A stretch of 64,000 nucleotides of DNA from Rhododendron vialii (taxonomy: Eukaryota; Streptophyta; Magnoliopsida; Ericales; Ericaceae). Every line of letters starts with the position of its first letter. Within the stretch, counting starts at the first letter, position 1. The translations under genes were made by a program, and so were the position numbers. The notes under the pieces are model-generated. The model saw nothing but the letters and a program-made list of their open reading frames with translations, made no database searches and was not told the DNA's origin. Location of the stretch: the NCBI RefSeq assembly GCF_030253575.1, contig NC_080562.1:27116352-27180351 (forward strand), written 5' to 3'. This document shows positions 8,737 through 39,939 of the stretch, piece after piece.

Positions 8737-8739
8737 ACT

Positions 8740-8751
8740 TGGTATGAAAGC
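8740..8751 (+). other. primer-binding site, initiator-tRNA-Met type, degenerate
   Basis: TGGTATGAAAGC lies four bases after the LTR terminus CGTTACA. It matches the plant tRNA-iMet complement TGGTATCAGAGC with two mismatches. Confidence 0.7.
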
Positions 8752-8885
8752 CTTAGGTTCAAACCCTTGGCCTTGGGTAGTTTGGGTAGGTCACATCAGA
8801 TTGAGTATTTCACTACAAATTTAAAATAACACTAATTGAAATATACCGAGACCTAACGATAAATATATTTTTCCTTACTTTATAG

Positions 8886-10404
8886 ATGGACCCCACGTTT
8901 GCAAACCAACTAGCCGATGAATGGAGCAGATTGCAGGACTTCTTGGAAAACACCATAGGATTCGACTTCTCTTTCCGAGACCCTTACGTACCAACTGAGT
9001 TTCCTATTATGTACGGCCAGTATCAGCAGCTAAGGGCGAATTCACCAAACTAGAGGGAGGTATACACGGCTCAGTATCCAAGCCCATGGAGAAGGGCTAA
9101 TCTCGAGAAGGAAATCCGTGACATTCTAGAAAGCATACCAGGCTTTGACATCAGGAGCGACCCCTATAACTCACATTATAGAGATATGGATAACCAGCCC
9201 CCGATTCCTACCCCAGACTGGAACCATAACCCTCCCAATACTCAGGAAGAGGATGAGGCGGCCCAGCTAGCTACGAAAGTGAAAAACCTAAGAGCATTCA
9301 TGACAGCCACCCCAGATTTTTCGATGGGAGATGACTACTTGGCCGGAATGTTCCCTACCCTCTATCGGATGAGACAGGCTCACCGAAGGATTACAGCTCT
9401 CACCGACGCCGTCGCTCGCTCCACCGTTGAAGACTACGAGATACGAGGCATGCTAGCTAGCCTACATCCTCGGAGTAGAAGTAGGACCGCAAGGAGATCC
9501 CGAGGAACCCCCTGAGCAAGAAGAGGATCCTAAAGAGCCCTCTGAGGAGGAAGAAGACCCAGAAGAGCCTCCATTTCCAGGATCAGAGCACGATTACCAT
9601 TTGGGCCCCTGGCAGCCAGAGCAGGAGGAACCAATAGTACCAGAGGAAGGACAGAACCAGGATGAAGAGATGGGCAATGCTGAGCCGAAATTGGAAGAAG
9701 ATGCAGAAAATAGCAGTGACAGTGAAGATGGATTTTTGGTAGAATCGGAGATGGATGATTATGGCTGGCTCTTACCCATAGATGCACCAATAGACATGGA
9801 TGCCGAGCTGCAGTGGTGGCTAACAAGCCAACGGCTCGAGATGCAAGAACCTCCACCTTCTCCAGCCCCCGTACCAATAGAAGAATCTGATAGTGAGTGT
9901 GAAGTCATAGACGCCGACCCTCCACCTCGTCCTAAGATGGCTCGACCCGTAGGAATTCCATGGGTAGGACACCATTCCGACTATGATCCAAACACTTGGG
10001 TCTATATACAGCTGGAACTGCTATACCCTTGCCCATTTAAGATCAGGGCACAATCAGCCTACCTAGGGCCAGTAAAGATCCAAGCCCCATGCTATAATGG
10101 ATACTATCTCATTGCTGTACCCCAAGGATTTGGGGAACACTACACCGACCGCATCCATTATTCACGAGTCGCAAGGTCCTGTCCCGAGCAGGAACATCGT
10201 ATCATTACATAGAATGCCAACTTCACCGATCACGTCACCTATACAGAGATACCCATCCGCCTAGAACCTTATAACAACCCAAATCCCAACGAAGGACAAC
10301 AGGAACCACTATGGCTAGTAACATGGCATTGCTACGGGCTCACAGAGGACACCGTCGAAAAGCAGAGTCTTCTAGAAGAGCATTTTCCAGTACATTTCGA
10401 TTGA
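8886..10404 (+). pseudogene. extra ORF upstream of gag: acidic protein of unknown function
   Basis: An ATG at 8,886 (MDPTFANQLADEW) begins a coding-like stretch of about 500 codons before gag. It is interrupted by TAG at 9,051-9,053, a frameshift near 9,480-9,515, and TAG at 10,210-10,212, and ends with TGA at 10,402-10,404. The middle is rich in Glu, Asp and Pro. The last ~120 residues look globular (WVYIQLELLYPCPFKIRAQS; later YYLIAVPQGF). I recognise no domain. Chromoviruses normally go straight from the leader into gag. An additional 5' ORF is known in Ogre/Tat elements, but I see no similarity to those. The bases just before the ATG (TTTCCTTACTTTATAG) could be a splice acceptor. Confidence 0.6.
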
Positions 10405-10680
10405 TCGATTCCTTAAGCATCTACTAGTCGTTTCACGCACAACACTTTTTTTTTTCTTCTTTCTAGGAAAACAATTGTGGTAGTGGGAATTATCTTGACT
10501 TTTAGTAGCTACACATCTGAGTAGTATGTTTTGACATGAATGGTGTGTTTGATTCATTTTGTTAATAAAAAAAAATTTATTATGATGTTCTGCTTCCATG
10601 TATATAATAGATATACAAATATATATGTTCTTCTAATAAACCCCCCCTTACTAAATTATAACATAACGGTATCTAGATAG
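10405..10680 (+). other. non-coding spacer before gag with possible splice acceptor
   Basis: Between the extra ORF and gag lies a non-coding, A/T-rich spacer. Its end has a branch-point-like TTACTAAAT (10,648-10,656) followed about 25 nt later by AG (10,679-10,680). The gag frame opens exactly there without an in-frame ATG. Splicing from a 5' leader donor could supply the start codon. This is inference from signal placement only. Confidence 0.35.
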
Positions 10681-11955
10681 AGGAAACAAGAGACAACCAG
10701 AATAACGAGCAAAACAATAGACAAAATGGAGCCCCTCAACTCAACGGCCAAATTGGGACTACCCAGCTAGTCCAACTCATGCAAGCATTTATTGCCGCTG
10801 CGACTGCAAATAACCAGACTCAGCACACACCTCGAGGGCCAATGACCAGGAGTCAGGCACTGAATGAATTTTGCAAGCGTCTCCCGCCCTACTTTCAAGG
10901 AAAACCTAACCCCACAACTGCGGAAGCTTGGCTAGAAGAAATCAAAGAAAATTCTTGAAACCCTAGACATTCAAGAAGCCAGCAATCGAATTGTTCTAGC
11001 TACCTATTAGATGCAAAGTGAAGCTCAGCATTGGAGGAACCTGATGAAGAACACCCATGATGTAGCAACAATGACTTGGGAAAGGTTCGAGGAAATTTTC
11101 CTTGACAAGTACTTTCCAAAACCTGTCAAACAAGCACTGGCCTTGGAATTCATGAACCTCGAACAGGGCACAATGACCGTGACCTAGTACGCAGCACGAT
11201 TTGAAGAACTGTCTCGCTATGACACAACAATCATACCTACTGATGACGACAAGGCAAGAAAATTTGAGTGGGGACTCAATGAGACACGCCGAGCAGTGAT
11301 GGCACAGACACTTCCCACCTACTCACAAGTGGTGCAATGCGCACTTAAGATGGAGAGAGAAAACTTGGATTTCAAGACAAGGCGTGAACAGAAGAAGGCA
11401 ATACCTGCAGTTGGAGGACTTATCTGCACCAACCCTAACAACAGGGGTACCCCAACCTCTCAACCCTACCACCAAGACTACCCTCGCCCGCAACCGTCAC
11501 AATCCAACCCAGCTTGGAGAAACCGCAATCTAGGGTTCAATCGAAACCCTAACCCTAATCCGAACCAGATTCAAGCACCGAACCGAGGCCCAAACCCCAA
11601 TCTTGGACCAAACCGCAACCTCCTTCCCCAGAGTCAAAACCTAGACCACCGCTGTTATTACTGCCCAGAGGATGGACATATCAGGAGGAATTGTCCTAGG
11701 TTGAACGGTGCTGGAAACTATGGAGGACCGCCGCAAAATCAGGTCAGGACTGCAGGATTTGGAAATCAGAATCAGAATCAAGCTAGGCCGGTTTGGAATG
11801 GTAACCAACCCGGAGGACAGAACCAGCCTCGTGGTGGGTGGAACAACCGCCAACTCGCCTTTTTCAGAACAGAGGATCAAACGGGCCAATCCAACCCAAT
11901 GCTGGAAGGGTGTTTGCACTGCAAGGAACGGAAGAGGAGATGGACCCTGCAGTAA
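10681..11955 (+). pseudogene. chromovirus gag (capsid and nucleocapsid), broken
   Basis: Encodes the retrotransposon Gag domain: LPPYFQGKPNPTTAEAWLEE early, then the MTWERFEEIFLDKYFP helix typical of plant Ty3/gypsy capsids. A Pro/Asn/Gln-rich linker follows, then a zinc knuckle CYYCPEDGHIRRNC near 11,660-11,700 (CX2CX4HX4C). Lesions are a single-base frameshift near 10,945 and TAG codons near 11,010 and 11,188, the latter in place of an expected Gln. From 11,296 it is open to 11,955. No ATG lies in the early frame. It overlaps the protease frame at its 3' end. Confidence 0.8.
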
Positions 11956-14900
11956 TCCAAGGTACCCTCACTCTTTATACTACATGCGTTCAAGCACTAT
12001 TTGATTCTGGAGCTTCGCACTCATTCATATCTGCCGCGTGTGTATCTACACTTGGATTATAAACTGAACCTCTAAAGACAACTATGCATGTGACCTCACC
12101 ATTAGGGGGTAAGATTTCGGTAGTACTAATTTGTAAAGGGTGCGAACTAGAAGTGTCTAACTTGCGGTTAACATGCGACTTACGAGTAATCGAAATGATG
12201 GACTTTGACGTCATACTCAGGATGGACTGGTTGACTGCGCACCGAGCTGTCATAAACTGCCATCGAAAGATAGTGACAGCCTATTCACTAGATGGAACGA
12301 GTTTCAAGTTTAAGGGGGATAGACAAGACCCTTCTGCACCCCACGCGCACAAAACGAAGTGGCATAGGAAGCTCGCTGGATGGTTAGCGAGTTTCAAATT
12401 GGAGGAAATGGACCGAATGGAGTTGGGCCTCCTTCACGTCGTCTGCGAGTACGAGGACGTATTTCTAGAGGAATTACCAGGATTACCGCCACCAAGGGAA
12501 TTGGATTTCACCATCGAGCTACAACCCGGCACGACCCCAATCTCGATGTCCCCGTATCGAATGGCTCCAGCAGAACTACGAGAGTTGAAGACACAACTAC
12601 AGGAACTTTTAGAAAAGGGTTTTATCCGACCTAGTACCTCACCATGGGGAGCTCCACGCTATTCGTCAAAAAGAAAGAAGGAACGCTCCAACTTTGTATC
12701 GACTACCGCCAACTCAACAAAGTCACCATCAAGAACCGATATCCTCTACCGAGAATAGACGACTTGTTCGACCAGCTGAGAGGGTCAACTTGTTTCTCGA
12801 AGATCGATCTGAGATCTGGATATCACCAATTGCGAATTCGAGATTGTGACATACTTAAGACGGCATTCCGCACGCGTTACGGGCACTACGAGTTCATAGT
12901 CATGTCGTTCGGTCTAACCAATGCTCCTGCTATTTTCATGTGCCTGATGAACCAAATTTTCACGTCGTACTTGGACAAATTTGTGGTAGTGTTCATCGAT
13001 GACATCTTTGTATACTCTCCAACAGAGAAAGAACACGAAGACCACTTGAGAATTGTCCTCCAAGTACTTCGAGACAACCATTTGTATGCGAAGGCCAGCA
13101 AGTGCGAATTCTGGATGAAAGAAGTCAAATTCCTAGGACACGTGGTGTCAGAGAAAGGAATCTCAGTCGACGAGAGCAAAGTAGAAGCAGTCATGGACTG
13201 GAAAAGACCTTCTACGGTATTCAAGATTAGAAGTTTCTTGGGATTAGCCGGCTACTACAGAAGATTTATTCAGGATTTCTTCATCTTGGGAAAACCATTA
13301 ACGCGACTGACCCAAAAAGGGGTTAAGTTTGAATGGAACGAAGCATGTGAGAGATCCTTCCAAGAACTTAAGAAGAGGTTGACTAGCGCTCCTATATTGA
13401 TCATACCCGAACAAGACGCAGGGTATACCATGTACTGCGACGCATCCAAAGATGGATTGGGAGCTATACTCATGCAAAATGGAAAATTCGTTGCTTACGG
13501 ATCCCAACAATTGAGGCCGCATGAAAGGAATTATCCGACTCACGATTTGGAACTGGCAGCAGTGGTATTCGCCCTAAAGTCTTGGCGACATTATCTATAC
13601 GGAGAGCAGTTCAAGGTATTCACGAACCACAAAAGTTTGAAATACTTGTTTACCCAGGAAGAGCTGAACATGAGGCAAAGGAGATGGGTGGAATACTTGG
13701 AGGATTTCAACTTCACGATGTCCTATCATCCTGAAAAGGCAAACGTAGTCGTTGATGCACTAAGTCGCAAAAACCGAGGACAAGTGGCTAGTTTAGCAAT
13801 AAGAGAATGGAAGATGATGGAGGACCTTAACAGATTCAAACTACAACCAACCGCAGAAGGCGCCAACGCGTGTCTCTTCACCGTAGTCGCAACCTCAACC
13901 TTACACCGAGAAATTCTTTTAGCCCAAACATTTGAACAAGAATGTGATTTCATCAGACACCAACTCTCAATTGGAAAAGCAGCAGCCGGGTGGACAATCC
14001 ACACTGATAAAAGTCTCCGCTTCCAAGGAAGAATTTTTGTACCAGACACCGGTACCCTCCAGGAAGCAGTACTTAAGGAATTCCACCATTCCAATTTCGC
14101 CGTCCACCCAGGGAGCACCAAGATGTACCAAGACCTCCGCCGACAATACTGGTGGGCTGGAATCAAGAAGGACATGGCCAAATACGTTTCAACATGCCTC
14201 ACCTGCCAACAAGTAAAAGCGGAACATCAGAAACCCGATGGAACCCTGCAACCCTTGCCTATACTCGGATGGAAGTGGGAACATATCGCCATGGATTTTG
14301 TGATAGGACTACCTGGGTCTCCGCAATCAAACACCGCCATTTGGGAGATAGTTGATCGTTTAACCAAATCCACCCACGTTTTACCCATGAAGATGACAGA
14401 CTCAATGGACTCTCTCAGCAAACTCTACATCCGAGAAATCGTGCGATTACATGGTGTACCCGTATCCATTGTGAGTGATCGAGATTCACGATTCACGTCG
14501 ACCTTTTCGGATAGGTTACAGAAAGCATTGGGAACCGACCTTCATCTCAACACCGCATTTCACCCACAGACGGACGGACAATCCGAAAGAACAATCCAAA
14601 TCTTAGAAGACATGCTCCGTGCCTGCACTTTGGACTTTAAGGGAAGTTGGGAACGACACCTACCCTTAGTCGAGTTCGCCTATAACAACAGCTATCAATC
14701 CAGCATAGACATGGCACCATACGAAGCTTTGTATGGGCAACCTTGTCGATCACCAGTTTGTTAGGCTGAATTGGGAGAAGCAAGCTTACTAGGACTAGAA
14801 TTAGTTCGAGAGACAACAGAAAAGATCAAAACCATTCGCCAACGGCTCCTGGCTGCGCAGAGTCTACAGAAGAGCTACCTCGACAAAAGGACCAGACCAT

Positions 14901-15345
14901 TGACCTTTCAGGTTGGAGAACATGTGTTCTTAAATATCAGACCACGAAAAGGAGTTATCCGATTTGGAAAGAAAGGAAAACTATCACCACGATACATTGG
15001 CCCTTTTGAGATCCTCAAGAAAATTGGAGAAGTGGCGTACCGCCTGGCACTACCACCACAACTGGACCGAGTTCACAACGTGTTCCACGTGTCAATACTC
15101 CGAAGTACATAACACATCCTTCCCACATCATCAATTGGGAAAACATTGAACTCAACGAGGACGTCACTCTCGAGGAACAGTCAGTGGAGATCCAAGACTA
15201 TAGTGAGAAGTGCATTCGAGGCAAAACCATTCAACTCGTCCGAATCCTTTGGCGACATCAAGGAATTGAGGAATCAACCTGGGAACGAGCGGATACTATG
15301 CGCGCCAACTATCCGAATCTGTTTCCTCCTAAAGGTACACTCTAA
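11940..15345 (+). pseudogene. chromovirus pol: protease, RT, RNase H, integrase, chromodomain
   Basis: The protease motif LFDSGASHSFIS lies near 12,000, with a TAA at 12,060. The linker to RT runs to a frameshift near 12,657. From 12,644 a 706-codon stretch carries RT (catalytic FIDDIF near residue 118), RNase H ([11 protein letters not shown] near 263) and integrase. The integrase shows the HHCC zinc finger ([10 protein letters not shown], then CLTCQQ) and catalytic D (MDFVIGLP), D (VSDRDSRF) and E (TDGQSERT). A TAG at 14,762 replaces the expected Trp. A frameshift near 15,108 precedes a chromodomain tail (WERADTMRANYPNLF) ending at 15,345. Catalytic residues look intact, so the damage is confined to stops and shifts. 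Confidence 0.9.
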
Positions 15346-15364
15346 TTTCGAGGACGAAATTTTG

Positions 15365-15379
15365 TTAAGGGGGATAGGT
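15365..15379 (+). other. polypurine tract of the chromovirus
   Basis: AAGGGGGATAGG sits directly before the 3' LTR start TGTAACG, the expected plus-strand priming site. Confidence 0.75.
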
Positions 15380-17895
15380 TGTAACGACCCGTAAATTTTA
15401 TCATTAATAATATCATTTAAAAAGTATTATTCGTATTAATAAAATTCTTTCTCTTAATAGATATGTACAAATATAATTATCTTATCTTATTTATCTTATT
15501 TTTATTTTTTTTTCAAGTTGCATGCATGCACACTCCTTCCGTCTCTCTCTCTCTCCTACTCAGTCTCTACTTCCTCCCTGATCATATATTCGTCCTTATC
15601 TCGTCCATATCAAAGCCCAAGAGATAGAATTTTCATTAAAATCAATCCTATCCTACACTACCAAAATTCACCTATAAATACCCCACCCCATTGACCCACG
15701 AGCATACCACGATATTTTCCATACTCCACCGACCAAAAAAGAAGAGAAAAACAAAAGTAAACCAAGCTCCAATCAATGGAGTTTTAGAGAGAGAAAATTA
15801 GAGTGAGAAAAGTGGGTTTCATAACTACGTTCAACCAAAACCCAATTCCCCCGTTCCAATCACTTCCTACAACTCCAAGCATCACCAAACACCCCTCAAT
15901 TCGATCCCAAGGTCTCCCGATCAAAGAACTCGAAGTCTTCTTCCCCAAAATTCAAGATTCGTTTTTTTTAAATCAATCCGATCCAATTCAAGGTATTATA
16001 ATCCATTCCAACCTCCTCTCTACATATATTAAGTGTTTTTATGTTTAACCCAATAGCCCAAATGGACCCATGCATCGAAATCGGAGCGAAAAACGAAAAA
16101 AATCGAATCTGTCATCGAGTTTGCGGCCGCAAACTTCGGGCCGCAAGAACCAAACCTGAGTTTGCGTTTCGCTGCTTAGCCGCAAAGTTGACTCGGTCAG
16201 ACCTTACGGCAGCTGTTCTTTTGGTTCGAATGTGTTTTGCGACCTCCCGAACAATGTTTTTGACCCCTGGACTATTTTTCTAGACTTTTCACATCTCAAA
16301 GATCATACCTTATTAATATCATATTTTATTTATTTATCTATTAATTATTTATTTATTCGTTATCTTTCAAGATTTTACAAACGAAAAATCGTTACGACCT
16401 TCCGAAGAACATTTTGCCACCCAAACTATTTTTCCTAGACTCCTCGCATCTCAAAGATGATATCTTGTTAATTTCATATTTTTTTTATTTTAATTACTAT
16501 TTATTATTATTTTTACAGTGTTTCCAATTAAAATTACCTTACGACCAAATAAACCTTATTATTAATGCCCGAGTAATTTTATTTAGACTCCTTACCTTCC
16601 CAAGATGAAAAGTTATTTACCTCGACCTATTTTATTTATTAAATAATTTATTATCCATTTATTTTACTTTCGACAACTTTTGTTAATATCTTATTTAAAA
16701 TAATCCCACGACCCTCCGAACCCAACTTTTGACACTCAACTGGTTGCATAGGACCTTTAGGACTCTTATTAAGATAATGTTAATTATTCTAATATTTTTA
16801 CCTAATTAATGTATTTAATTAGTTTTTAATCAATCTAATTACTTAGAAATAATTAATGAGAGCCTAGAAAAATATTTTTTTAAAAAAATCTTTTAAAAGG
16901 TTCTTACTTATTATCATCTTGGTCATACGAGATTAAGGGCAACGACCCATTCATAAAAAGTTGTGTGATTGCATTGTTTACTAATTGTTTTGTTTATTAT
17001 TTGATTAATTGTATGTGGCACCACTACTTGATTTGAATGCTAGATTGGACCCTAGAGACATGGGGTGGTATGTGAAATAGAATTCACTTAGACGATGCTA
17101 GGTAATGGATAAATTGAGAAGTTTTTCCTTTTTAGAGATTGCCTGCAGGCGGAATTTTGAGATGTGATGAGATTTGTGATGAGATTGAAACTGGCGGGAG
17201 TCTAGTGATGATTGTAAAGTATTTGTGAAGTGGTGTATAAGATAAGTAAACCCTAATTGTGATTCAGGCATAATAAGTTTTCCATTTGTTGTAGTTATTG
17301 GGGTGCACACTCGGTATATAACTTAGGTGTATCTGCGACAGCAAAGGGAAGTGATCTCATGGGACCGAGCATGGCTAGCGGTTGGGGAGGAAATATCTCG
17401 TGGATGAGATCTTAGATTTCACATTAGAATAATGGATAGTAATAAATTGGTGTTTGTGAATCTCTGTTCTACTTTTCGCATCTTTATTATCCTATTACTT
17501 GCTAGCTGTAAAGTAAGAGGGGTAGTTGGGTTGGATTATAGTACGGGGTGAACTCTATCACTCAGGTACGAATTGCCTGGCATCCGTGCCAGATTTTGCA
17601 GAAAATCAAGAAGAGACACAGAACCCCGACGGCGAGCAGTTTTATGCAGAGGAGAATCCAGAGAGGGGAGCCGAGCCAGAAGATGTTTGGGATCCGTATC
17701 AAACCTAGGAGTCGGCTCTGTACTCTGTCTATTTCTTTATCACAAAGACTATTTTTAGTATTTCCACAATAGTTTGTAATAAATGAATCTTTATGTTGAA
17801 CTATCTGCTTTGGATTTTGAGCTTTAATTTAATAAATTTTTCAGCAATTAATATTTAATGCCTTCGATTTTATTTTCGAAAATTGGGCCGTTACA
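15380..17895 (+). repeat. chromovirus 3' LTR, complete (2,516 bp)
   Basis: Begins TGTAACGACC and ends GGCCGTTACA, a TG...CA LTR with inverted ends. A TATA box (TATAAATA, 15,673-15,680) lies 293 bp in, with CT-rich leader sequence around 15,540-15,580. The 3' half matches the truncated 5' LTR. Small open frames inside (for example near 15,803-16,283 and 17,526-17,772) have no recognised content. Confidence 0.9.
15673..15680 (+). promoter_or_regulatory. TATA box of the chromovirus 3' LTR
   Basis: TATAAATA followed by a CCCC-rich start region. The corresponding segment of the 5' LTR is deleted, so this is the element's only intact promoter. It would direct transcription outward into 17.9 kb and beyond. 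Confidence 0.6.
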
Positions 17896-19524: not shown

Positions 19525-20108
19525 TTATTTTGCTAAAAGAGCCTGGTTCATGCAACTCAAATCTCTCAAGCCCAAACCACCCTTACTCTTAGGAAAACAA
19601 CAAACTTCCCACTTCCGCCAAACCAACCTTTTCTCCTTATCACCGTGCCAGAGAAATTTCACCACAATACTCTTAACCTTATCTAAAAAATTAACGGGAG
19701 CTCTAAAAACTGAAATAGCTTGGGATTGTAAGCAACACATGCTTGACTAAGACAAGTCGTGAAGAAAACGACAAAAGCAAAGCCTTCCACGAGGAAAGCT
19801 TGGCACCAACTCTATCCAGCACCTTAGAAAAAAGACTACCTTTCCTTAGAGAAAAATCCATATTAGCACCCAAATAAATCCCAGGTTTGTCAACACATTT
19901 AACTCCAAAAATACGTTTCAAATTCAGCATCTCATCAGAATGCATGTTTGGACTAACAAATAACTCTGACTTATTGAAATTGATCTTTTGTCCTGCCTGG
20001 CAGCAATACACATCCAAAACCATTTTAAACACCAAGCATGCTCCAGCTTATGCTCCACAAGAATAAAACAGTCATCCGCAAATAATAAGTGAGAAATGCT
20101 AGGCGAAC
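19525..20108 (-). pseudogene. LINE-B reverse transcriptase, C-terminal half (interrupted by a provirus)
   Basis: Minus-strand frames encode SISHLLFADDCFIL, the catalytic FADD motif, near 20,060-20,105. Then come the thumb-region motifs PGIYLGANMDF, SWKALLLSFSSRLVLVKHVL and GGLGLRDLSCMNQALLAK. There are frameshifts near 20,035 and 19,740. The coding sequence is cut at 20,108 by the endogenous pararetrovirus and resumes at 27,196. Confidence 0.8.
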
Positions 20109-20420
20109 GAATAATTGGGGTATAATGTTTATTAGGTAAAGTTGTATGTACTTTAGTTTGAATAAGTAGGTAAGTTTACGACAATAAATGGCATGTACCA
20201 ATTATGTATAGGTACTGTAGCAAAACAGTAATGCCCAATTATGTATAGGTACTGTTTAATGATGTAATCAGCCTCCTTACTTCGCCTATAAAAGGAGGAC
20301 TTACCCCGGTGTAAAAGCCAAGCGAGAGTTCAGTGTTTTCCTAATATATCCTGTGTCTTGTATTCACTCTTTTTGATCCTAACCTACTTTGTGTTTGTAC
20401 CCACTTCGTGTCTGCAAATT
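20109..20420 (+). repeat. provirus left terminal repeat (LTR-like)
   Basis: Begins GAATAATTGGGG and ends GTCTGCAAATT, immediately before the primer-binding site. It contains a TATA box (20,287-20,293) and two copies of CAATTATGTATAGGTACTG. Against the right repeat I count nine substitutions and one 3-bp indel, about 97% identity. Confidence 0.9.
20287..20293 (+). promoter_or_regulatory. TATA box of the provirus promoter
   Basis: TATAAAA within CGCCTATAAAAGGAGG, typical of a caulimovirid pregenomic promoter. TGATGTAATCAGC lies just upstream. The same box is in the right repeat near 27,063. A transcript starting just downstream would run through the primer site into the movement protein. Confidence 0.65.
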
Positions 20421-20432
20421 TGGTATCAGAGC
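20421..20432 (+). other. primer-binding site, tRNA-Met
   Basis: TGGTATCAGAGC is a perfect complement to plant initiator tRNA-Met, the universal primer of Caulimoviridae. It starts on the base directly after the terminal repeat. Confidence 0.9.
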
Positions 20433-20764
20433 CAATGTTGTTCATACTAGCTTAAACCCTTTCTGGAAACTTCTTTTCCAATACTACTTCAAATCTTTTT
20501 TAAAAGAAAAAATTGAAGCGTATACTCTGTAGTTGCCTTTCAAGGATCCTCCACATCAGAAACTTCATTAACTATTTTGATTAAAGAATTTTGTATCAGT
20601 GGGTTAAAAGTACCTTGAGACTTTGGCTTTTGAGCAGTGTGTCTCGGTTTATCTACCCTAGTATATAGAATTTTGTTAATCAAAATTAGTTAAAAGATTT
20701 TACATTAAAAAGAAAAGATTTGTTGTATGAGGAAACGAAGAACCCAGACTTTTATCCATAAAAA

Positions 20765-21682
20765 ATGAATCACTTGTTTTCCACCTATTCCTCTGCTACC
20801 TCCTCTTTAGTTCCTTCAAGATCATCCACCAGTAGAAATTCCTCAACCTCTTCTTCTTCTAATCTTGAGTACTTGTATGAGTTTGAATATCTACCTGATG
20901 ATAGAAAGGTCCCCCTTACTGATCTCCTTTTCTTAAACCCCTATAATGCTTTTGTCAGACCACAAACCTCTGTAAAAAAGTCTGTCACCCAACTCTTCTC
21001 CACAAAACGTCCAACCTCCGTAAAAGAATATGTCCAAGCCTCCAAGTTTGATCAGTGCTTCATAGCAGCTACAGAAGCTGAACAACTTTTACCTTTGGAA
21101 ATCCCAGTTGATTTGCCTCGCCTTTGGAAACAACAAGGATTTACTCATCTTCACTTTGGAGCAATCAGATTGGCTGTTACTTTCCATGGCAGAAAAGGTT
21201 TGCCTGTTACTTCCAGACTTGCTCTGGTAGATACCAGGTTCTTGCAGTATCAGCATGCATGTATTGCTACAGTTCAAACCACTTTAAATGCTGGAACTGT
21301 GATCTTTACCTTTTACCCCAATTTCAACATGCCACTAGCAGATCCTCATTTGCTATCAGCCTTGAAAGTGCAAGTTCAAATTGGTGGTGCCTCCCAAATT
21401 TCCACCACATATGCAGCAACCCTTCACTACCAAATGGCCTATCGTCTCCAAAACCATGCTCTGGACATGTCATTACCCTCCTCCACAGATGAAGCCATTT
21501 TCCTAACTGTCAACGCACCACACCAAGCTTCTTGTGTCCATGTTCCCTGTCAAATTTCCCGTCCTGAGCTTCTCAAGCTTCTCCCAGAGTCTTGGGTTAC
21601 AGCTTATGAGAAAACCAACAAAAGCCTATCCCAGTTCAATCCTCAAATCCAACTTTCATCCCAAAACCTGATGGTACAGTGA
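20765..21682 (+). CDS. caulimovirid movement protein (30K superfamily)
   Basis: A 305-codon open frame that begins with a Ser-rich N-terminus. The 30K-type core lies around residues 125-215, with LVDTRFLQYQHA followed by a GTVIFTFYPNF strand. Movement proteins widen plasmodesmata for cell-to-cell spread and do not occur in ordinary LTR retrotransposons, so this is the key evidence for a viral origin. The frame closes at 21,680-21,682. The polyprotein frame overlaps it and is open upstream of 21,679, so in the ancestor the movement domain may have been fused to the polyprotein, now separated by a frameshift. The leader from 20,433 holds no large ORF. Confidence 0.8.
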   Translation: MNHLFSTYSSATSSLVPSRSSTSRNSSTSSSSNLEYLYEFEYLPDDRKVPLTDLLFLNPYNAFVRPQTSVKKSVTQLFSTKRPTSVKEYVQASKFDQCFIAATEAEQLLPLEIPVDLPRLWKQQGFTHLHFGAIRLAVTFHGRKGLPVTSRLALVDTRFLQYQHACIATVQTTLNAGTVIFTFYPNFNMPLADPHLLSALKVQVQIGGASQISTTYAATLHYQMAYRLQNHALDMSLPSSTDEAIFLTVNAPHQASCVHVPCQISRPELLKLLPESWVTAYEKTNKSLSQFNPQIQLSSQNLMVQ

Positions 21683-24600
21683 AAATTTCATTCCCAAAAG
21701 AAGTCTCTGCCTCATCCTCCACCCATCTTGTCATTTTTCCCTCAAGAATTGACATGTTTATAGATGGTTCTAGACCTAGCCCTCCAATTAAATATTTTCA
21801 ACCCAATGGCCTTCCAGTCTTCTATTTCAAAAATCCAGAAACAGGTCATTGTTATTTTGATGCCTGTGACTGTGATGAGTGTCTAGAAGACCGTCTCCTA
21901 GAAGATGATGAAGAGAACTTTGAAGAACCATGTCCCATATGTCCTTCGTTACCTCCCACTCCTTGTAAATCTCCACCTCCTCCTCAACCTCCGTCTGATG
22001 ATGGCTCTTCGAGTCAACCAAGTGGGTGTTTTATGTTCACCTCATCTCCTTCCTGGACTGAAGCAGATTTCCCTCCTCTGGAATTTCATAGTTTTCAAGA
22101 AAGAACGACCCATCGTCATAAAATTCCAGATCCTACTACCATTCTCCCTGATGGTAGCACAAAAGCAGTGTCAGAAACAGAAGCAGCAATAAATTGGCAA
22201 TTAGCAAATTCTTTGGCTCAAAACAAAATTCTTCAGAGAATTGCTAACTCTCAGCAAAATTTGGAAAATGTTGTCCATAAGAAGTTATCATCTTTAGAAC
22301 TTCTTATCAGAGATTTGTAGCAGAAAATTCAAAATGTTCACCAAGAACTATTCCAGATGGCATATGCCAACCAAGCTTTTTCAGCAGTTTTTTACCAAAA
22401 GGATGCTGAAATGAAGCATTTAAAGAATCAGCTTCATTCACTTCAAGCTCAACAGTATTCTCAACAAAAAAGTCCATTTGACATGTTCACATCTTCCTCT
22501 CAACAAAGTTTGTTTGGGCATCCTCAAATGTCTCAGCCCTTACCTATAAACCCTACTTCAGGATTTGGTGAGTCCAATATCTTTGGAAGCTCATCAGCTT
22601 TTCTTCCTCCACCAAAAAGACCATCTCCACCAAAACTTCCTTTCCCAAAGCCCCAGATAAAGCGTGTCCGACCTCCAACAGTTCCGTCTCCACCAACTAC
22701 CTCTACCTCAATTCCTACTACTTCATCTCCTTCTAAACTAGCTGATCCAAATTCAAAGTCACCTCAGTTAATGGTTCAGTCAACTTCTAACCCTTCTAAA
22801 AATCCAATTTCCACTCTTCTAAATACCTTAGCCACTATACCAGAAACCCCATCTCTTGAACCAACCATTGAGTTTGATTCGGATACTGAATCTATTGATT
22901 CTGTGCCAATCCCTCATGTTTTCATGATGAACCCTGAAAATTCTCCAGAAGAACATGTTAATGATCCTATTATTGAAGAAGGTCCTGAGTTTGATATACC
23001 TCCAGAAATTCCAACCTTTGATTCCTTCTCACATTCTAACATCCATACCCAAGATTTCTCCATTGATAATATCCCCCCATCAAAATGGCTGGATAAACTT
23101 TATGAGATTCATGCTTGGTGCACTGCTATTATGCTTTCCCTAAACGCTACACTGAGTATTGTCATTACTAAGTGTACAGGTAAATTCCTTGGCCGTTTTC
23201 GTCAATGGTACTTAGCTCTTGGTGAATATCGACAGTTGCAGCTAAAACAATTGCCAACCCTTGATCAATTCATCTCAGTCCTGCATACTGAGTTTCTTGG
23301 AGACCACAACAACACAAAAGAGTTTGTTTGAGAAGAATATCTCAGCATGAAGTGTTGTTCATTCAAAAGAAAAGATCTCGAGATTCATTATGATCGTATG
23401 TCTCAGAGATTTTATCTTCTCAACGGCATGGATGATGTCAATCTCAAGCAAGCCTTTCTCAATTCCCTTCCTGAACCATTTGGAAATGAGACAACAAGGT
23501 TACTTCAAACAAAAGGATTGACGCTGAATGCAACATCTCTTGGTGGTATTTACCAGCACTCTTTGATTGCCTTGAAAAAATTGTGCAATCACCAGAAATT
23601 CCTCAGAACTCTTGAAGAACAGGGAAAATTTCTTGGTAAAGCGTGTGACCGGCCTGACCTATCTATAAAGTGCAAAGACAAGAAGTGCACTTGCCGTCCT
23701 TCATATCGGAAGTCCAAACACTTTCAAAAATAGAAGTTCCAATCTCCTGGCAAGTTTTCAAAGTTTCCAAAATCTAGCAAGTTCTCACGCTGGAAAAAAT
23801 AGAAATTTTTCAAGAAGAAAAAGTTCAAAGGGCAGCGAAAGTCTGATCGCTGCTACATATGCAGAAAGAAAGGGCACTATTCAAAACAGTGTCCAAATAA
23901 AGCCGCAAGGGACAAGATGGTGAGCTCTCTGGCTCTCATTGATGATAATCTTGAAGATGCCGATGTTGAATCACTATTTTCCATTGATGATGAAGCAACA
24001 GATGAAGCAGTCCTAGCATTCACCTTTTCTGATTCAGATGATTCATCAGAATCAGATGATTTTTCTGATAATCCTGACTCATTCCCCTATGAAATCCAAA
24101 CATTTGAATTCTCAAATATCATGGTGGCTCAACCCTTAGCCAAGGTCAAAATCTTGCTTGGAAAATATGAGAAACCCATGCCAATTATCGCTTTCTTTGA
24201 TACTGGTGCAGCAGCCTCCATTCTCAACCCAGCAATCCTTCCCAGGTCCTATTGGCAATCATGTTTTACACCCTTTACAGCAGCTAATGGAGAAACTTTT
24301 GTTATCACTCTGATCAGTAAGCCTATTACTATCCAACTTTTCCCATGATACACCATAAAACACCAAGTCTATGGTTCTGATCTTCCAGAAAAAGATTTAT
24401 TATTAGGGTTTGATATTCTCCAAAATCTCAGCAAAGTCTTTTGGCTCAAAAAAGGCTTGAAATACAAAAATTACCTGTTACCCTGGACCACCCAACCAAA
24501 TCTCTTTACCATAGAAAATTTCTCCTCCATCAAAGAAGCCATAATCCAAACCTCTTGTGCTGAATCCCATTCTCAGTTCCTCACCAAATGCTCCAACCCA

Positions 24601-26052
24601 CTCTGGAAAAACCCAGATTTCTTTATTTCTCTTCCCTTTAAGAAAAATGAAGACATCAATCCTACCAAAGCTACCCATCATGGAATGAACCCAAAACACT
24701 ACCAGCTTGCTCTCCAAGAACTCCAGCAACTCCAGTCAGAAGGTTTGATTGAACCCACAACCTCTCAGTGGGCATGTGAGGCATTTTATGTGAACAAAAG
24801 AACAGAGCAGATAAGAGGAAAACTTCGCTTGGTTATCAATTACCAGCCTCTTAATCATTTTCTGCAAGATAATAAATTTCCTCTTCCTCGGAGAAGTGTT
24901 CTTTTTGCAAACTTGCCTAAAGCTCAAATTTTCTCTAAGTTTGACTTGAAAGCAGGTTTTTGGCAGCTGGGCATCCATTCAAATGATCGCCCCAAAATAG
25001 GTTTTTGCATTCCAGATCACCACTTCCAGTGGTCAGTCATGCCTTTTGGATTAAAAACAGCCCCATCTTTATTTCAAAAGGCCATGATTCGGGTATTTGC
25101 TCCGATATTATCCTCAGCACTTGTCTATATTGATGATATCCTACTCTTTTCTCCAGATATTGAGTCTCATGCTGTCTTACTACAAATTTTCAATTCCCTA
25201 GTCCAAACCCATGGTATCATGCTTTTAGAGAAAACGATGCTCATTACTCAACCAAAAATTGATTTTTTAGGGATGCATATCTCTAAAGGTCAATATTCCC
25301 TCCAGCCTCATATAGCCTCTCAACTTGACCATTTTCCAGACGAAAATCTCACAGTCAAACAAGTTCAACAGTTCCTTGGAATTGTTAACTATATGGCTGA
25401 TTTCATTCCCAACCTTGCCCAATACCGAACTCCTCTCTCAGCTCTACTAAAGAAAACCCCTCCTCCTTAGTCAGCCATTTGTACCAAAGCTATAAAAGAC
25501 CTCAAAGCCATAGCCAAAACTCTTCCTCCATTAACCATACCTTCAGATGGGAAGAGAGTCCTTCAGACATATGCCTCTGATCTATATTGGGGAGCAGTTC
25601 TTTTGGAAGAAAACACAGATCAAAAGCGCAGAATTTGTTGATATATGAGTGGTGCATTCTCTCCAGCAGAACTTCATTACCACTCTACCTACAAAGAAAT
25701 TCTGGCAATCAAAAGGAGTATTGAGAAGTTTGAATTTCATCTAATCGGTCATCATTTTCTAATAGAGACTGATATGATGAGCTTTCCCAGCATGCTCAAG
25801 TTCAAACAGAAGCACTTTCCAAAGGCGCAGTTACTCAGATGGGCAAATTGGTTTTCCAATTGGAGTTTTAATGCTGTTCACATAAAAGGAAAAACAAATG
25901 TCCTCCCAGATTTTCTGTCAAGGCTCAAAAAAGAAATCAACCAATTTTCAAAAACAAAACCACATCCCTTTGTTCTTGGCTGTTTTCCAATGATTTCCTG
26001 TTTCACCCAGTTAATCTTCCTGTCCACCTTCAATGTCAAATTTTGGAGTTAA
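21679..26052 (+). pseudogene. caulimovirid polyprotein: coat region, protease, RT, RNase H; multiple stops
   Basis: One continuous frame interrupted by stops at 22,318, 23,329, 23,731, 23,800, 24,346, 25,468 and 25,639. The first third has acidic, Pro-rich and coiled regions. The coat-like region ends in a CX2CX4HX4C zinc knuckle near 23,850-23,895. An aspartic protease motif (DTGA) lies near 24,200. RT follows, with YIDD near 25,125 and the FSKFDLKAGFWQL block upstream of it. RNase H ends in a LPDFLSRL block near 25,915. This order is the standard caulimovirid one. No integrase-like HHCC or DDE region is seen between RNase H and 26,052. With so many stops it cannot yield the full product. 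Confidence 0.85.
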
Positions 26053-26783
26053 CCCTTCTTTCCAGATGTGTCCAAATGTGTCAAAACCTTCAATATCTCT
26101 GTATTTTCAAGTATGGTCTTGATGAAGGTCCCATAAAAGGTTTAACTTTCCATCCTGTCTATCCCTTTCTCACCCAGTTTGAAGTGTCTTACCACAATGT
26201 CTTTTATTTCAAAAAAGAAGCCTATCTCCTCTTATGGTATTTAGTCGATGTGTATACTATAAGTGTCTGTTTTAATAGATCAGCAGTATTGGTGTATTTA
26301 GCATATGCGGTGTTCAATCAGGTCCATCCTCCAGAAGATTTCTTTTTGAAATTTCTCTTGCTCTTCGGAAGCATTTCTTACTGGCAAGAGAAGATCAGAC
26401 AAATCCCCAACAGTGCAGGCGGAGATCTCCAATTTTCTTTTTGGACAAGTCGCAATAACAGATGTCTTCCCAATCCAGATGGTTCTATCACTTGGCAGAA
26501 GGAGTATCACATTATATTTCTCTCTGCATATCAAGAGTCTCAGAGCATCCAGAATGACAGTGGAAATTATCTTGTCATGACTCAAACACTGTGTTCACTC
26601 AATGGATTGACACCTGCGGAAGTTCCTTCATCTCTCCTCCATTATGAATCTGCAAACTGGAAATTCAATGATACTTATCCGGAAGAATGACGCCAAAATA
26701 TCTGCTATCTTTTGGAACAATATTACTTGACTGACAGAACTGAAGACTATTCTGGAGAAAGTGGTTCAGATGATTCAGAGTAA
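26043..26783 (+). pseudogene. downstream provirus ORF of unknown function
   Basis: Open from about 26,043 to a TGA at 26,688-26,690. The same frame then continues for 30 more codons to TAA at 26,781-26,783 with an acidic Ser/Asp/Glu tail. The start is uncertain because there is no ATG at the frame's beginning. Florendoviruses carry a second ORF of unknown function after the polyprotein, and this is positioned like it, but I see no diagnostic motif. Confidence 0.5.
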
Positions 26784-26877
26784 CAACCATGTGCTCATGA
26801 TAGCTGTCTCTTTTGTGTGTAATGTAATATAAAGTTGTGAAGAGAAATAAAGTAAAGGTAGTGTTGTCCGCTTTTCT

Positions 26878-26886
26878 GGAGAGGGT
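26878..26886 (+). other. polypurine tract-like sequence
   Basis: GGAGAGGGT sits immediately before the right terminal repeat. In LTR elements this is where plus-strand DNA synthesis is primed. Confidence 0.55.
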
Positions 26887-27195
26887 GAATAATTGGGGTA
26901 TACTGTTTATTAGGTAAAGTTGTATGTACTTTAGTTTGAATAAGTAGGTAAGTTTGCGGCAATAAATGGCATGTACCTATGTATAGGTACTGTAGCAAAA
27001 CAGTAATGCCCAATTATGTATAGGTACTGTTTGATGATGTAATCAGCCTCCTTACTTCGCCTATAAAAGGAGGACTTACCCCAGTGTAAAGGCCAATCGA
27101 GAGTTCAGTGTTTTCCTAATATATCCTGTGTCTTGTATTCACTATTTTTTATCCTAACCTACTTTGTGTTTGTACCCACTTCGTGTCTGCAAATT
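26887..27195 (+). repeat. provirus right terminal repeat (LTR-like)
   Basis: Direct repeat of 20,109-20,420 in the same orientation, including the TATA box and primer-proximal end. It ends AAATT before host LINE sequence resumes at 27,196. Confidence 0.9.
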
Positions 27196-27510
27196 GAGAA
27201 CTTACAGCAATGCCTCGGCAAATATCATGAGAAGCAAATTCTGATAAACCATCCGAAAAGGCTTGAGCTACCAAAATGAACAAATACGGTGACAGTGGAT
27301 CCCCTTGACGAATTCCACAGGCTGGAACAAAAGAACGACTTTCCTTCCATTAACCATTACTGAGAAGGACACTGTAGAAATGCACTGATGAATCCAGCCC
27401 ACTCACTGCTGACTAAACCCCATAACTCGCAAAATCCCATCAGAAAACCCCAATCCACTCTATCATAAGCCTTGTTCATATCAAGTTTAAGTGCATGAAA
27501 CGCTCACTTA
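27196..27510 (-). pseudogene. LINE-B reverse transcriptase, N-terminal half
   Basis: The minus strand encodes HALKLDMNKAYDRVDW near 27,450-27,500. Then, in other frames, it encodes [20 protein letters not shown] near 27,260-27,320, both hallmark LINE RT blocks. It ends with RGIAVS at the provirus junction. Together with 19,525-20,108 it makes an RT domain interrupted only by the provirus. The element is truncated at the hairpin starting at 27,511. Confidence 0.85.
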
Positions 27511-27661
27511 CCAAGGACATGTACTTTCTATATCAAAGATGAAAGGATAGTCCCACGTGCTTTCCAATGTATTTTTATTCTAGATCTATTTTCGATAAAA
27601 ATACATTGGAAAGCAAGTGGGACTATCCTTTCATCTTTGATAAGAAAGTACACGTCCTTGG
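27511..27661. repeat. near-perfect long hairpin (67-bp arms)
   Basis: The left arm at 27,511-27,578 (starting CCAAGGACAT) and the right arm at 27,595-27,661 (ending GTCCTTGG) pair with only about three mismatches and one indel around a 16-nt loop. It abuts the LINE-B truncation point and lies 300 bp beyond the 3' end of receptor-kinase copy 1. It could be a foldback MITE, a small-RNA hairpin, or an inverted duplication made during LINE insertion. No flanking duplication is obvious. Confidence 0.85.
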
Positions 27662-27973: not shown

Positions 27974-30444
27974 TCACCTTGGTCCTGATAGAACTGATGC
28001 TAGTAACGGAGTGCCATCATCAACAGCATCCATGTCTTCACCAGTAGTTGCCATTGTTCTTCTTGCTGGAGCATTTATGAAGTTATAGTCCAAATTGTCT
28101 TGGACACTAACCAAGCCCTCCAAGACCTGAACCACCACTGTCATTGAAGGTCGCCTCCGGTAATCACTTTGTAGACACCACACAGCAAGCTTCATCATCT
28201 CCACCACTTCTGCTCCATGTAATTGCATATCAGCATTGTATTTATCGACCATATCCAAAAGTTGCCCCTCTTCTCCTTTCCTTTCGAATAAACCTAATAA
28301 ATGCATCTCTTCCTCAGGCTGAGACATATCCAAATTTCTCCGTCCGCTCAAGATCTCTAAGACCACGACCCCAAAGCTATAGACATCTACTTTCTCTGTG
28401 ATAAATGAGCTCAACCATTCAGGAGCCATGTAGCCTGGGGTTTCCCCCAATGTCGCTACAACTCGGCTTTGGTCTTTGTCAATTAGTTTTGCCAATCCAA
28501 AATCGGAAACTTTTGTGACAAAGTTGTCGTCCAGGAGGATGTTTTGGGGTTTGATATCCAAGTGGTATATTTTCTGTCGACATTCATCATGGAGATAAGC
28601 TAGTCCCTTGGCTATATCAGCGATGATTTTCTTTTTGGATTCCCACCCAAGAGTGAACTCTTGATGTCTTTTGAATATCCATCTATCCAAGGACCCGTTG
28701 GACATGTACTCGTAGACTAGAAGCCTATTAGAGTTTTCAGTACAAAATCCGATCAATCTTACCAAATTGACATGGTGGATGCTGCCTATTGTTTGAACTT
28801 CAGCCAAGAATGACTTCTTGATCTGACTTACACCATTGAGACGCTTCACTGCTACATTGGTGCCATCAGTTAAAGTCCCTTGAAAGACTGAGCCGAATCC
28901 TCCTTCTCCAAGCTTTTTGTTGAAATCATCGGTCGCAGTTTTCAAATCATAGTATGAGAATCGTGTAGGCATCCCGGGTACTTTTACGATAGAAAACTCA
29001 TCATCAAGTTCCTCTGGTTCTCTTTTCATTTTGAAAACGAAAATGTAAGATCCAACCAAAAGACATACACCAAACAAAGCCCCAAGACTAGATCCCAGGA
29101 TGATTGTGCCACTCCTTGATTTCTTTTGAGGAAAATCTATTGGCGGCAATGACTGTTTGGTTGGAGAATTCTGTATTTTAAGAAATACAGAGCTGCTGTT
29201 GGATCTTCGCTCATTGTTTATAAGAGAAAAAACTTCAAACAGTAACAAGCAACCTCTCCATGGGGCATAATAGAATAAAGCGGCTTTGCACGAACAATTT
29301 CTCAAACAAGCGCTCTTGCAATCCTCCAATCCTGTTTTCTCATCCAACTGATTATCGTTGTACCTTAAGTTAAAGTAACCAATATTCTTAAGCTCCAAAA
29401 GACTATGATACTGAGAATAATTGCAAGAAATGGGTGTAACAAGGGAGCATCCGAGGTTGGGTTGCTTATAACTTATTTGCTTGAATTTCCCTGTTACATT
29501 GCTGGATCTCTCAAAACAACTGCACTGCCCGTTGGAAGAACATATGCCATATCTGCCACAGGCCATTGGATGCCCGCAGTGACCGATACTTGACGTGAGC
29601 AAATCCGCCACGGACCTGATCAATTCGAATCTTCCCCATTCGTAAACCTTCAAATGCCCGTCGGGTTCCAGCCTCATGAACTGAGCTGTTGACCCAAGAG
29701 GGACATTTTGACCATTGAAGCTTCCGTTCTCAAAAACAACATACGCTTCCCTCAAACTAGTGAAATTTTCATATCCTGCTAAAAGGGATTTATAATAGAC
29801 CAACGGTGGATTAACTTCCAAGTAGCCGACCAAAAAACCATCAATAGAAAGAGAAAACAAGCCTCGGCTGAAGTCTGAGGCTGATGTGCTGGCTATCAGC
29901 TTTTGCCCGGTCACCAACTTTTGCCCGAGAAGTAAGCAGTTGGTGGGGTGATCAAAAGACTGCCAAACCGTCGCCTTGTTTCGATCAAAAAGCACAAGGT
30001 TTCCGACTTCAGTGAATCTTAAGCCTGTGACGGATTTTCCTCCCGTGTTGGTAGACCATACCATATCTCCATCAGCGGACGATCCCTGTTAGCAGACCAG
30101 ACTAGCTGGGGGCCGCTTATAGAGGTCGATGTTCGGGAATCGTACATACTTGCAAACATGACGATACCAAAGAAACATGAAGTTCCATTGGAAAAGCAAT
30201 AGAAGCCGGAAATGAAGTGTGAGGTATTGGATAGGGAAAGGACCGGAGAAAGGACCGGATATTTTTTATTTTCTAACTCCTCAAATGAGAAGGTGTTAAT
30301 TGTTGGGTTGTTGATCCATGTAGTGGATAAATTGGCAACTTGTTGGTACTTGAGTGATTGGGCGTTGTTCAACTGTGCAGAATAGATGAAGACGGTGATA
30401 CTAATAGCAAATGACATGATCAAAGGCAGACTTGGTTTAGCCAT
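27974..30444 (-). pseudogene. G-type lectin S-receptor-like kinase, copy 1 (frameshifted ectodomain)
   Basis: Intronless membrane receptor kinase resembling the SD2-5 group. The N-terminal part (MAKPSLPL, from 30,444) has a signal peptide and the start of the B-lectin domain, ending RDRPL. The remainder (30,064 to the stop at 27,974) has the rest of the lectin domain, an EGF-like Cys cluster (CGRYGICSSNGQCSC), a PAN-like Cys-rich region, a transmembrane helix near its residues 320-345 and a kinase at about 380-655. The kinase has GEGGFGSVFQG, HLDIKPQN (a non-RD catalytic loop, no Arg before Asp) and SDFGLAK. Compared with copy 2, about 58 bp are missing near 30,074, shifting the frame and removing a lectin strand. 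The 3' flank (27,750-27,930) is also shared with copy 2. Confidence 0.85.
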
Positions 30445-32517: not shown

Positions 32518-34163
32518 TTAATGCTTTGTTGTAACACCCAACATTTCTCTAAAATATTGGAACTTTTCCTTTGAAAGAGCTTTGGTGAAGATGTCCGCCA
32601 CTTGATCTTTGGTTGCACAATACTTGAGTTGAATCTCTTCATTTTCCACGGCCTCTCGAATGAAGTGATGCTTGATTGCAATGTGTTTGGTGCGGCTATG
32701 GTAGACGGGATTCTTTGTCATTGCAATTGTGGACTTGTTGTCACACAAAATTGGAGGCTTCACCTTGCTTTTCATCAACATCTTCCAAAATCCTCCTTAG
32801 CCATATTGCTTGAGAAGTTGCCGATGATGCCGACACATACTCGGCTTCGGCGGTAGATTACGCCATGGTTTGTTGCTTCTTAGATGCCCATGAGAAGACA
32901 CCCGAGCCAAGAGAAAAAGCATATCCGGAAGTGCTCTTCATATCATTGACACATCCGGCCCAATCACTATCACAAAATAGTAGCAATTTTGTATCAACAT
33001 TCTTCTCATACAAAATGCCATAATCAAGTGTACCTTATAAGTATCTCAAGACCCTCTTAGCCACTCCAAAATGAGTTTGGCTTGCATTGTGCATGAATCG
33101 GGATAACTTGCTTGTAGTAGACATGATATCCGGCCTTGTGATAGTCAAGTACAATAAGCTTCCATCCAAGTTTCTATAAAGAGATTCATCCACTTTTTTG
33201 CTTCCATCTTCTTTTGACAATTTCTCATTCGCAATCAAGGGAGTTGCAACCGACTTGCATTCTCTCATCTTGAATTTCTCAAGAAGAGTTCTTGCATACT
33301 TTCTTTGACAAATGAAAATATCCTCTTTGCTTTGATAAATTTCAATGCCCCAGAAATAATGCAAGAAACCCAAATCACTCATTTCATACTTCTTCATCGT
33401 GTCTCTTTTAAAATCCTCAATCATTTTCACATTGCTACCGGTAAAAACCAAATCATCAACATAGATAGAAACAATGAGAATACCGGTGTTACCTTGCCTC
33501 TTGATGTACAAGGTTGGCTCGCTTTTGCTTCTTTGAAATCCTCTTTCATTGAAGTAAGAGTTAATCTCACTATACCATGCCTGGGGTGCTTGCTTTAGCC
33601 CATATAAAGCCTTCTTCAACTTGTACACTTTTTGTTCCTTGCCTTTGACAATGAAGCCTTGAGGTTGATCAACAAACACATCTTCCTCCAAGACACCATT
33701 CAAGAAAGCCGATTTCACATCAAGTTGATATAAGAACCATCCCTTCGATGCCGCTAAGGCAACAAGAGACCTAATTGTGTCATGTCGAGCCACCGGTGCA
33801 AATGTCTCTTGAAAATCAATTCCGGGTTGTTGAGAATACCCTTTTTGCAACAAGTCTTGCTTTGTGCTTTTGAATGGAATCATCGGGGTTGAGCTTTGTT
33901 TTGAAAATCCACTTTACACCAATAACTTCTTTGTCTTTTGGCCTCTCTACCAACTCCCAAGTTTTGTTCTTCTCAATGACATGAATTTCCTCTTCCATAG
34001 CTTTCTTCCAAGCTTCCTCCTTAATTGCTTCTTCAAAGGTCTCCGGTTCAACAACACAAAAATTACAACTCGCATACACATCACTAAGGCTTTTCATTCT
34101 TCTTGGAGTTGAACTTGGAGATGAGGAACTTGAGCTTGATGGAGAAGTTGGAGGAGTTTGATT
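32518..34163 (-). pseudogene. copia reverse transcriptase and RNase H, frameshifted
   Basis: From 34,097 the frame encodes WKKAMEEEIHVIEKNKTWEL, then shifts near 33,850. From 33,883 the RT core has LDVKSAFLNGVLEEDVFV and the catalytic YVDDLVFTGS. It stops at 33,035. Further pieces encode STAEAEYVSASSATSQAIW, with an upstream TAG near 32,860, and then RNase H ending CDNKSTIAMTKNP and DIFTKALSKEKF (32,518). The catalytic YVDD is intact. Frameshifts and stops prevent expression. Confidence 0.85.
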
Positions 34164-34924
34164 TAGAGCTTCAAGATCATCACATTCTTCATCTTCTTGA
34201 CTCTCCGGTTCTTCATAATTGAAATGGACTTGGTTTTACACCACATTCCCCTTCCAATCCCAATATGCTTCTCATCAAAAAGAACATCTCTAGAAATGAT
34301 CACATTGTTTGTGGTCAAATTGAAGAGTCTATAGCCCTTTGATTGGGAGCTGTAACCCACAAAGATACACTTTTGACTAATTTCATCTAGCTTGCTCCTT
34401 TTCACTTTTGGAACATGAGCATAACAAATTGACCCAAAAACCTTCAAGTGATTCACGGATGGCTTTCTCCCACTCCAAGCTTGAAATGGAGTGATATTTT
34501 CAACGGCTTTTGTTGGACATCGATTCATCAAGTCGACCGCCGTATAGACGGCTTCACCCCAAAAAGTCTTGGGCAATCCCTTCTCATGTAACATTGATTT
34601 TGACATCTCCTCTATGGTTCTATTCTTCCTCTTGGCCACTCCATTTTGTTGTGGAGTGTACCCAACTGTTAGTTGTCTTTCCATGCCAATGTCTTCACAA
34701 AATTTATAGAATTCATTTGAAGTGTACTCGCCACCCCTTTCACTTCTCAAAACTTTCATTAAATAGCCACTTTGTCTTTCCACAAGGCTTTGAAACTTTT
34801 TGAAAATTGAGAAAACATCCGATTTTTGCCTCATGAAATAAACCCATGTCATTCTAGAAAAATCATCAATAAAAATGATAAAGTACTTGTTACCTCCATG
34901 AGTTAGCGTATCCATAGGCCGCAC
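34163..34924 (-). pseudogene. copia integrase core, catalytic residues altered
   Basis: Encodes FIIFIDDFSRMTWVYFM, then RSERGGEYTSNEF, then YTPQQNGVAKRKNRT, followed by the C-terminal GYRLFN region. In active copia integrases the second motif is RxDxGGEF/Y and the third NGVAERKN. Here the second catalytic Asp reads Glu and the catalytic Glu reads Lys. The integrase is therefore likely dead in its active site as well as in reading frame. Confidence 0.8.
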
Positions 34925-39775: not shown

Positions 39776-39939
39776 GTATATATACTGTATATTGTGAACC
39801 CTAAATTAAGGAACTAATCCTGGCATAGACATAGAGTTCCTAGACTCAAAACTCACCCAAAAGAAAATAGAAAAAAAACCCACCAACAGTCCAACAGTCC
39901 CAAAACAATCTCTGATAAAAAACCTTCGTATGAATCCTC

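Follow-up and report, generated by a model that had tools for sequence, protein, structure and literature searches.

The window analysed here (64,000 nucleotides of Rhododendron vialii) contains a caulimovirid element at 20109..27195, with a unit length of 6778 bp, that is flanked by two direct repeats resembling LTRs. On the + strand the left repeat (20109..20420) measures 312 nt and the right one (26887..27195) 309 nt. Their pairwise alignment has 300 identical columns out of 312. The differences are nine substitutions and a single indel of 3 nt, which gives 96.2% identity counting gaps and 97.1% without them, in agreement with the value of about 97% in the preliminary description of this DNA. 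Inside the LTR there is an internal direct repeat (20201-20255, ATTATGTATAGGTACTGT, twice), and the 3 nt that are the sole length difference between the LTRs map to its first copy. A TATAAA motif is found at 20287, within the left repeat, which begins 178 nt upstream of this TATA box, and it is consistent with the earlier proposal that the repeats carry the promoter. The repeat terminates in ...CAAATT and not in CA.

Both boundaries of the repeats coincide with putative priming sites. Position 20420 is the last base of the left repeat, and TGGTATCAGAGC (20421..20432, + strand) adjoins it directly. This sequence presumably pairs with the initiator tRNA-Met and is the sole + strand match at up to two mismatches in the 6778-nt unit; the primer site had been described as perfect and starting one base after the repeat, and it does so. 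By convention, caulimovirid maps begin at the tRNA-Met consensus (PMC4241990). On the other side, the presumed plus-strand primer (26872..26886, + strand) consists of TTTTCT, the purine tract GGAGAGGG (26878-26885) and a single T at 26886, after which the right repeat starts. The right repeat had been said to begin after a purine tract, which is correct as to the order, but the two are not directly adjacent since the T intervenes. Within the unit, GGAGAGGG is found at this place only, and just one other purine tract reaches at least 8 nt with at least six G.

Between the repeats, the + strand reading frames are interrupted by stops at several places. A 30K movement protein ORF of 305 aa (20765..21682; Pfam MP, 2.9e-14), whose frame is broken at its end, is followed by a second polyprotein fragment (21679..22320), identified from the ORF list and the alignments of relatives as the linker between movement protein and capsid. 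A third fragment (22357..23331) would be the N-terminal capsid region, as assigned by position, and a further one (23347..23733) was placed in the capsid region by position alone, with no Pfam match. Downstream there are a zinc knuckle (about 23848-23898; zf-CCHC, 0.00015) together with a weak retropepsin in 23803..24348, the RVP scores of the latter (0.025 and 0.037) lying under the cut-off, a reverse transcriptase (RT) fragment with the YIDD motif (24457..25470; RVT_1, 6.2e-25) and an RNase H in two pieces with a stop at 25639 between them (25471..26052; Pfam, 1.5e-12). The last open frame, of 272 aa (25872..26690), overlaps the end of RNase H in a different frame; it had no Pfam match and occupies the position of the florendovirus ORF2.

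No integrase was detected by Pfam in the 13 + strand pieces of the element (eight ORF pieces plus five more, three of which extend earlier ones) or in the stop-to-stop frames that come after RNase H, the scan being confined to these + strand stretches. Given the broken frames, a heavily decayed integrase domain could have gone undetected. Elsewhere in the window the same Pfam library recognised two integrase domains, Integrase_H2C2 (1.5e-19) in a Ty3 element and rve (2.2e-10) in a Ty1 element, so the method is able to see integrases. In addition, the precomputed domain column contained no integrase accession for any of 240 listed relatives (120 found with the RT, the best of 408, and 120 found with the movement protein, the best of 144), a set from which length limits leave out full polyproteins. 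The caulimovirid coding content proposed before is thus borne out by the Pfam matches to movement protein, zinc knuckle, RT and RNase H, by the weak retropepsin and by the lack of an integrase in the + strand pieces.

The layout given in the preliminary description, with the movement protein apart from the polyprotein, needs correction. The metagenome protein P0121 (388 aa) matched 267 of 283 residues in the movement protein and extends into the following ORF of the window (65/81 residues matched); its alignment with the ORF at 22357 (20/68) was discarded as spurious. P0238 of Rhododendron molle (471 aa) carries in a single chain the movement-protein tail (81/91), the ORF at 21679 (166/206) and the ORF at 22357 (118/140). 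With 89% identity across 30% of the movement protein, it is the nearest relative with a named host among the best 120 of 144 matches. Because both relatives have one reading frame here, the stand-alone movement-protein ORF is a product of decay. In the Glycine max virus the movement protein is naturally split from the remainder (PMC4241990), a layout that the nearest relatives of the window element do not have. No protein joining the movement-protein/capsid fragments to the RT was found among the relatives listed.

Membership of the Caulimoviridae is well supported by sequence comparison. Against solved structures, the RT piece scored 197 bits with that of CaMV (8r0s) and 122 and 119 with those of Ty3 (4ol8 and 7q5b), and the RNase H piece 64.3 bits with CaMV and 32.4 and 31.2 with Ty3. 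The CaMV scores thus exceed those of Ty3 by 1.6-2 times for both domains, as pairwise scores and not as positions in a tree. The structure model of the RT was mediocre (pLDDT 69.4), its best viral match having 61% identity and named caulimovirids 26-38% among the matches listed, so that the structure adds support at the family level only. The movement protein gave no match in the PDB up to E = 1.

A florendovirus-like affiliation is suggested by the gene order but is unproven. In florendoviruses (tentative genus Florendovirus) MP-CP-AP-RT-RH1 lie within one ORF1 and there is a florendovirus-specific ORF2 (PMC4241990). The endogenous members share with the window element the order of movement protein, capsid zinc knuckle, AP (weak here), RT and RNase H, an additional open frame placed downstream of RNase H and read in a different frame, endogenous relatives in many plants, the absence of integrase, and longer-than-unit loci with a tRNA-Met junction. 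In contrast to them, the element studied here has its ends at the primer-binding site (PBS) and the purine tract, and its unit of 6778 bp is shorter than the 7.2-8.5 kbp of florendovirus genomes (PMC4241990), although deletions may have occurred here. Petunia vein clearing virus (Petuvirus) likewise has a promoter-bearing “quasi long terminal repeat” (PMC7496347), but one per functional sequence (PMC7496347) instead of two; for petuviruses an integrase-like motif has been claimed, whereas none was found in the + strand pieces here. Petuviruses have a single polyprotein ORF, and the frames of the window element are broken. With Ty3/gypsy elements (Metaviridae) it has in common the LTR-PBS-...-PPT-LTR geometry and the RT/RNase H family. 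It differs from them in having a 30K movement protein and an RT nearer to that of CaMV, and in that no integrase, target-site duplication or terminal CA was found.

The element interrupts the RT of a LINE on the minus strand, the part downstream of the insertion lying at 19927..20108 and the upstream part at 27196..27349. Joining 20108 to 27196 with zero bases added or removed produces a 112-aa open frame that runs through the junction. We compared it with LINE proteins (the best 120 of 380 matches, three of which do not span the junction), and 113 of the 117 spanning proteins showed no net length change there, the other four differing by +4, +4, +2 and -6 residues. The query included the join, which could favour such matches, but differences in length are still visible. 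The join reads VSSRSP, compared with VSPRSP in P0241 and VSSRSP in P0243, both near relatives, and the codon split by the insertion is that for R. The LINE frame would be broken by a 4- or 5-bp duplication, and one of 3 or 6 bp would add one or two residues. The in-frame LINE RT restored by the zero-base join therefore indicates that there was neither a 4-6 bp target-site duplication nor loss of target. Direct comparison at the repeat boundaries also found no duplication of 1-10 bp; the flank duplications of 4-6 bp that had been suggested as a check are thus missing by both approaches. A look-alike at the two flanks (GAAC / GAGAAC) was ruled out by the LINE reading frame. The first base of the repeat and the first base beyond it are both G, so that one base can be assigned either way, leaving the zero-base join unchanged in both assignments. 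Within 500 bp on either side of the element we found no (TA)n of at least four units, which is unremarkable because such repeats flank 14-51% of large loci of florendoviruses in the species for which this was reported (PMC4241990).

Other features were noted in the window. Near the right flank of the element there is a near-perfect hairpin (27531-27642) with 48-nt arms that are 98% complementary and a 16-nt loop, possibly a small foldback element. A Ty3-type LTR element that codes for RT, RNase H and an integrase zinc domain extends over 7261-17895, its repeats being 94% identical over 1476 aligned columns; its 5' LTR has no definable end, and hence it provides no usable control for target-site duplication. 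Fragments of Ty1/copia type with RVT_2 and an integrase core are found on the minus strand at 33035-34924, a tandem array with units of about 137-143 bp at 38940-39811, and an ORF with MuDR/MULE-type transposase domains at 40572-42263. Two related receptor-kinase genes (27974-30064 and 60582-63095), about 32.6 kb apart, code for kinase and PAN domains, with a B-lectin domain in the first, and contain repeat segments that are 80-92% identical.

Taken as a single copy, the element is probably an endogenous caulimovirid that was trapped as linear, LTR-flanked DNA. The insert runs from the end of the purine tract to the PBS and is joined bluntly to the target, with neither duplication nor loss. 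The route to the linear form and the repair pathway are what we infer from these ends. A tRNA-Met at the PBS would prime reverse transcription of the pregenomic RNA, and plus-strand DNA would start from the purine tract that precedes the promoter. On the circular map the two origins would then be separated by 312 bp, one on each strand. In caulimovirids the DNA forms an open circle whose strands are each interrupted where their synthesis was primed, the incoming strand having displaced the old one over a short stretch (PMC7660458). Here the molecule would not have been closed into the usual short overlap and would have become linear, either by strand displacement through the whole 312-bp interval or by opening of the gapped circle and fill-in of two 312-nt 5' overhangs. 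With nicks at this spacing on opposite strands, displacement and fill-in would equally yield a 312-bp direct repeat at both termini. The linear DNA would then have been joined into a break within the LINE, and decay would have come later. The absence of target duplication or loss points to blunt end joining by the host and not to an integrase. Against this reading, usual plant repair is less clean than an end joining with no loss at either the viral or the target ends. One detail also runs counter to a perfect fit: the T standing between the purine tract and the right repeat has no counterpart at the left end, so one nucleotide may have been trimmed or priming may have started one nucleotide beyond the tract, the plus-strand origin itself being deduced from an 8-nt purine tract. 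Capture of a linear reverse-transcription product had been the first option in the preliminary description, and with the ends at the strand origins and the blunt insertion it is the best supported one.

The exact ends on both sides and the clean blunt junction would also be expected if a caulimovirid lineage regularly made and inserted LTR-flanked linear DNA, with a provirus stage but no integrase of its own. Petuviruses, which are reported as the sister group of florendoviruses (PMC4241990), have a described quasi-LTR that fits such a lineage. All of its copies would have the same two ends. Blastn found no second copy of the element within the 64-kb window, searches with one RT piece or an alignment gave none among viral contigs, and no integration activity was identified. 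This was the second option in the preliminary description, and with a single copy at hand we regard it as unlikely. (One genome-contig match, with 24% identity in an archaeal bin, was judged not relevant.) The broader proposition of a pararetrovirus lineage with linear LTR DNA of fixed ends, blunt end-exact insertion and a complete pregenome driven from the LTR in the absence of integrase, which would link LTR retroelements to circular pararetroviruses through a group still living or lost only recently, seems to us rather doubtful. A Ty3-type LTR retrotransposon, or a chimera of a caulimovirid and an LTR element, served by an integrase in cis or in trans, would account for the layout of LTR, PBS and PPT, and Ty3 and Ty1 elements with integrase are located nearby. 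For the copy in the window this is contradicted by the absence of a 1-10 bp target-site duplication, both by direct comparison and in the LINE frame; the + strand pieces scanned have no integrase, the repeat ends in ...CAAATT instead of CA and the RT is nearer to CaMV, making this origin very unlikely.

Chance cutting of a circle, or of a concatemer slightly above unit length, at random points has in its favour the longer-than-unit florendovirus loci already published (PMC4241990). It is disfavoured because both ends coincide with strand origins. Under two independent random cuts, the probability of obtaining both ends is about 9e-8 in a strict model (one cut exactly at the base before the PBS and the other within 1 nt of the end of either 6-G purine tract) and about 2e-6 with the loosest definition of the tract (31 purine runs, 2 nt of slack). 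These figures bear out the earlier argument from the coincidence of both boundaries, and we consider this explanation highly improbable. The fact that the target is a LINE could suggest instead that a viral transcript was captured by target-primed reverse transcription of LINE type. Such a transcript would not explain a left repeat that begins 178 nt upstream of the TATA box, the right end has no poly-A tail and there is no target-site duplication. Moreover, both template switches are required to place a complete repeat at each terminus, and this last origin is hardly credible.

Provided that the two repeats were identical when the linear DNA was inserted and have not undergone gene conversion since, the Jukes-Cantor distance between them (0.0297) would date the event. 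With the plant substitution rates of 1.3e-8 or 7e-9 per site per year, the insertion would be about 1.1-2.1 million years old.

According to a 2023 review, the endogenous pararetroviruses identified so far all lack LTRs (PMC10741241), a generalisation of the review and not an ICTV criterion in the text consulted. Another review of the same year describes the Caulimoviridae as having neither integrase nor LTRs and the mechanisms of capture as speculative (PMC10377300). The preliminary description had stated that the family is not known to have LTRs, which agrees with the first review but needs qualification in view of the petuvirus quasi-LTR and of a florendovirus 1.2-mer in Prunus (peach), both in print. 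The latter starts at ORF2, continues to the tRNA-Met site and then contains a whole copy (PMC4241990). For petunia vein clearing virus, quasi terminal repeats and an integrase-like motif have been described (PMC8256270; PMC12904150), while the part consulted of PMC7496347 describes the quasi terminal repeat with no mention of such a motif. In the portions consulted of the open-access literature we found no integrated caulimovirid whose LTRs end at the PBS and the purine tract, and those of PMC13308828, PMC5491270, PMC9719215, PMC5766536 and PMC11363490 do not describe such ends.

The element is thus an exception to the generalisation that endogenous pararetroviruses are devoid of LTRs, as worded in that review (PMC10741241). 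Annotation tools are likely to file a copy of this kind as an LTR retrotransposon. Repeats at both ends might also provide an LTR clock for endogenous pararetroviruses, and would let one insertion give rise to a transcript with terminal redundancy, a point made earlier for florendovirus loci exceeding unit length (PMC4241990), although the copy in the window is itself decayed. This copy would also record which DNA entered the chromosome, a linear molecule reaching from one strand origin to the other, and the way in which it was joined, bluntly and with no duplication.
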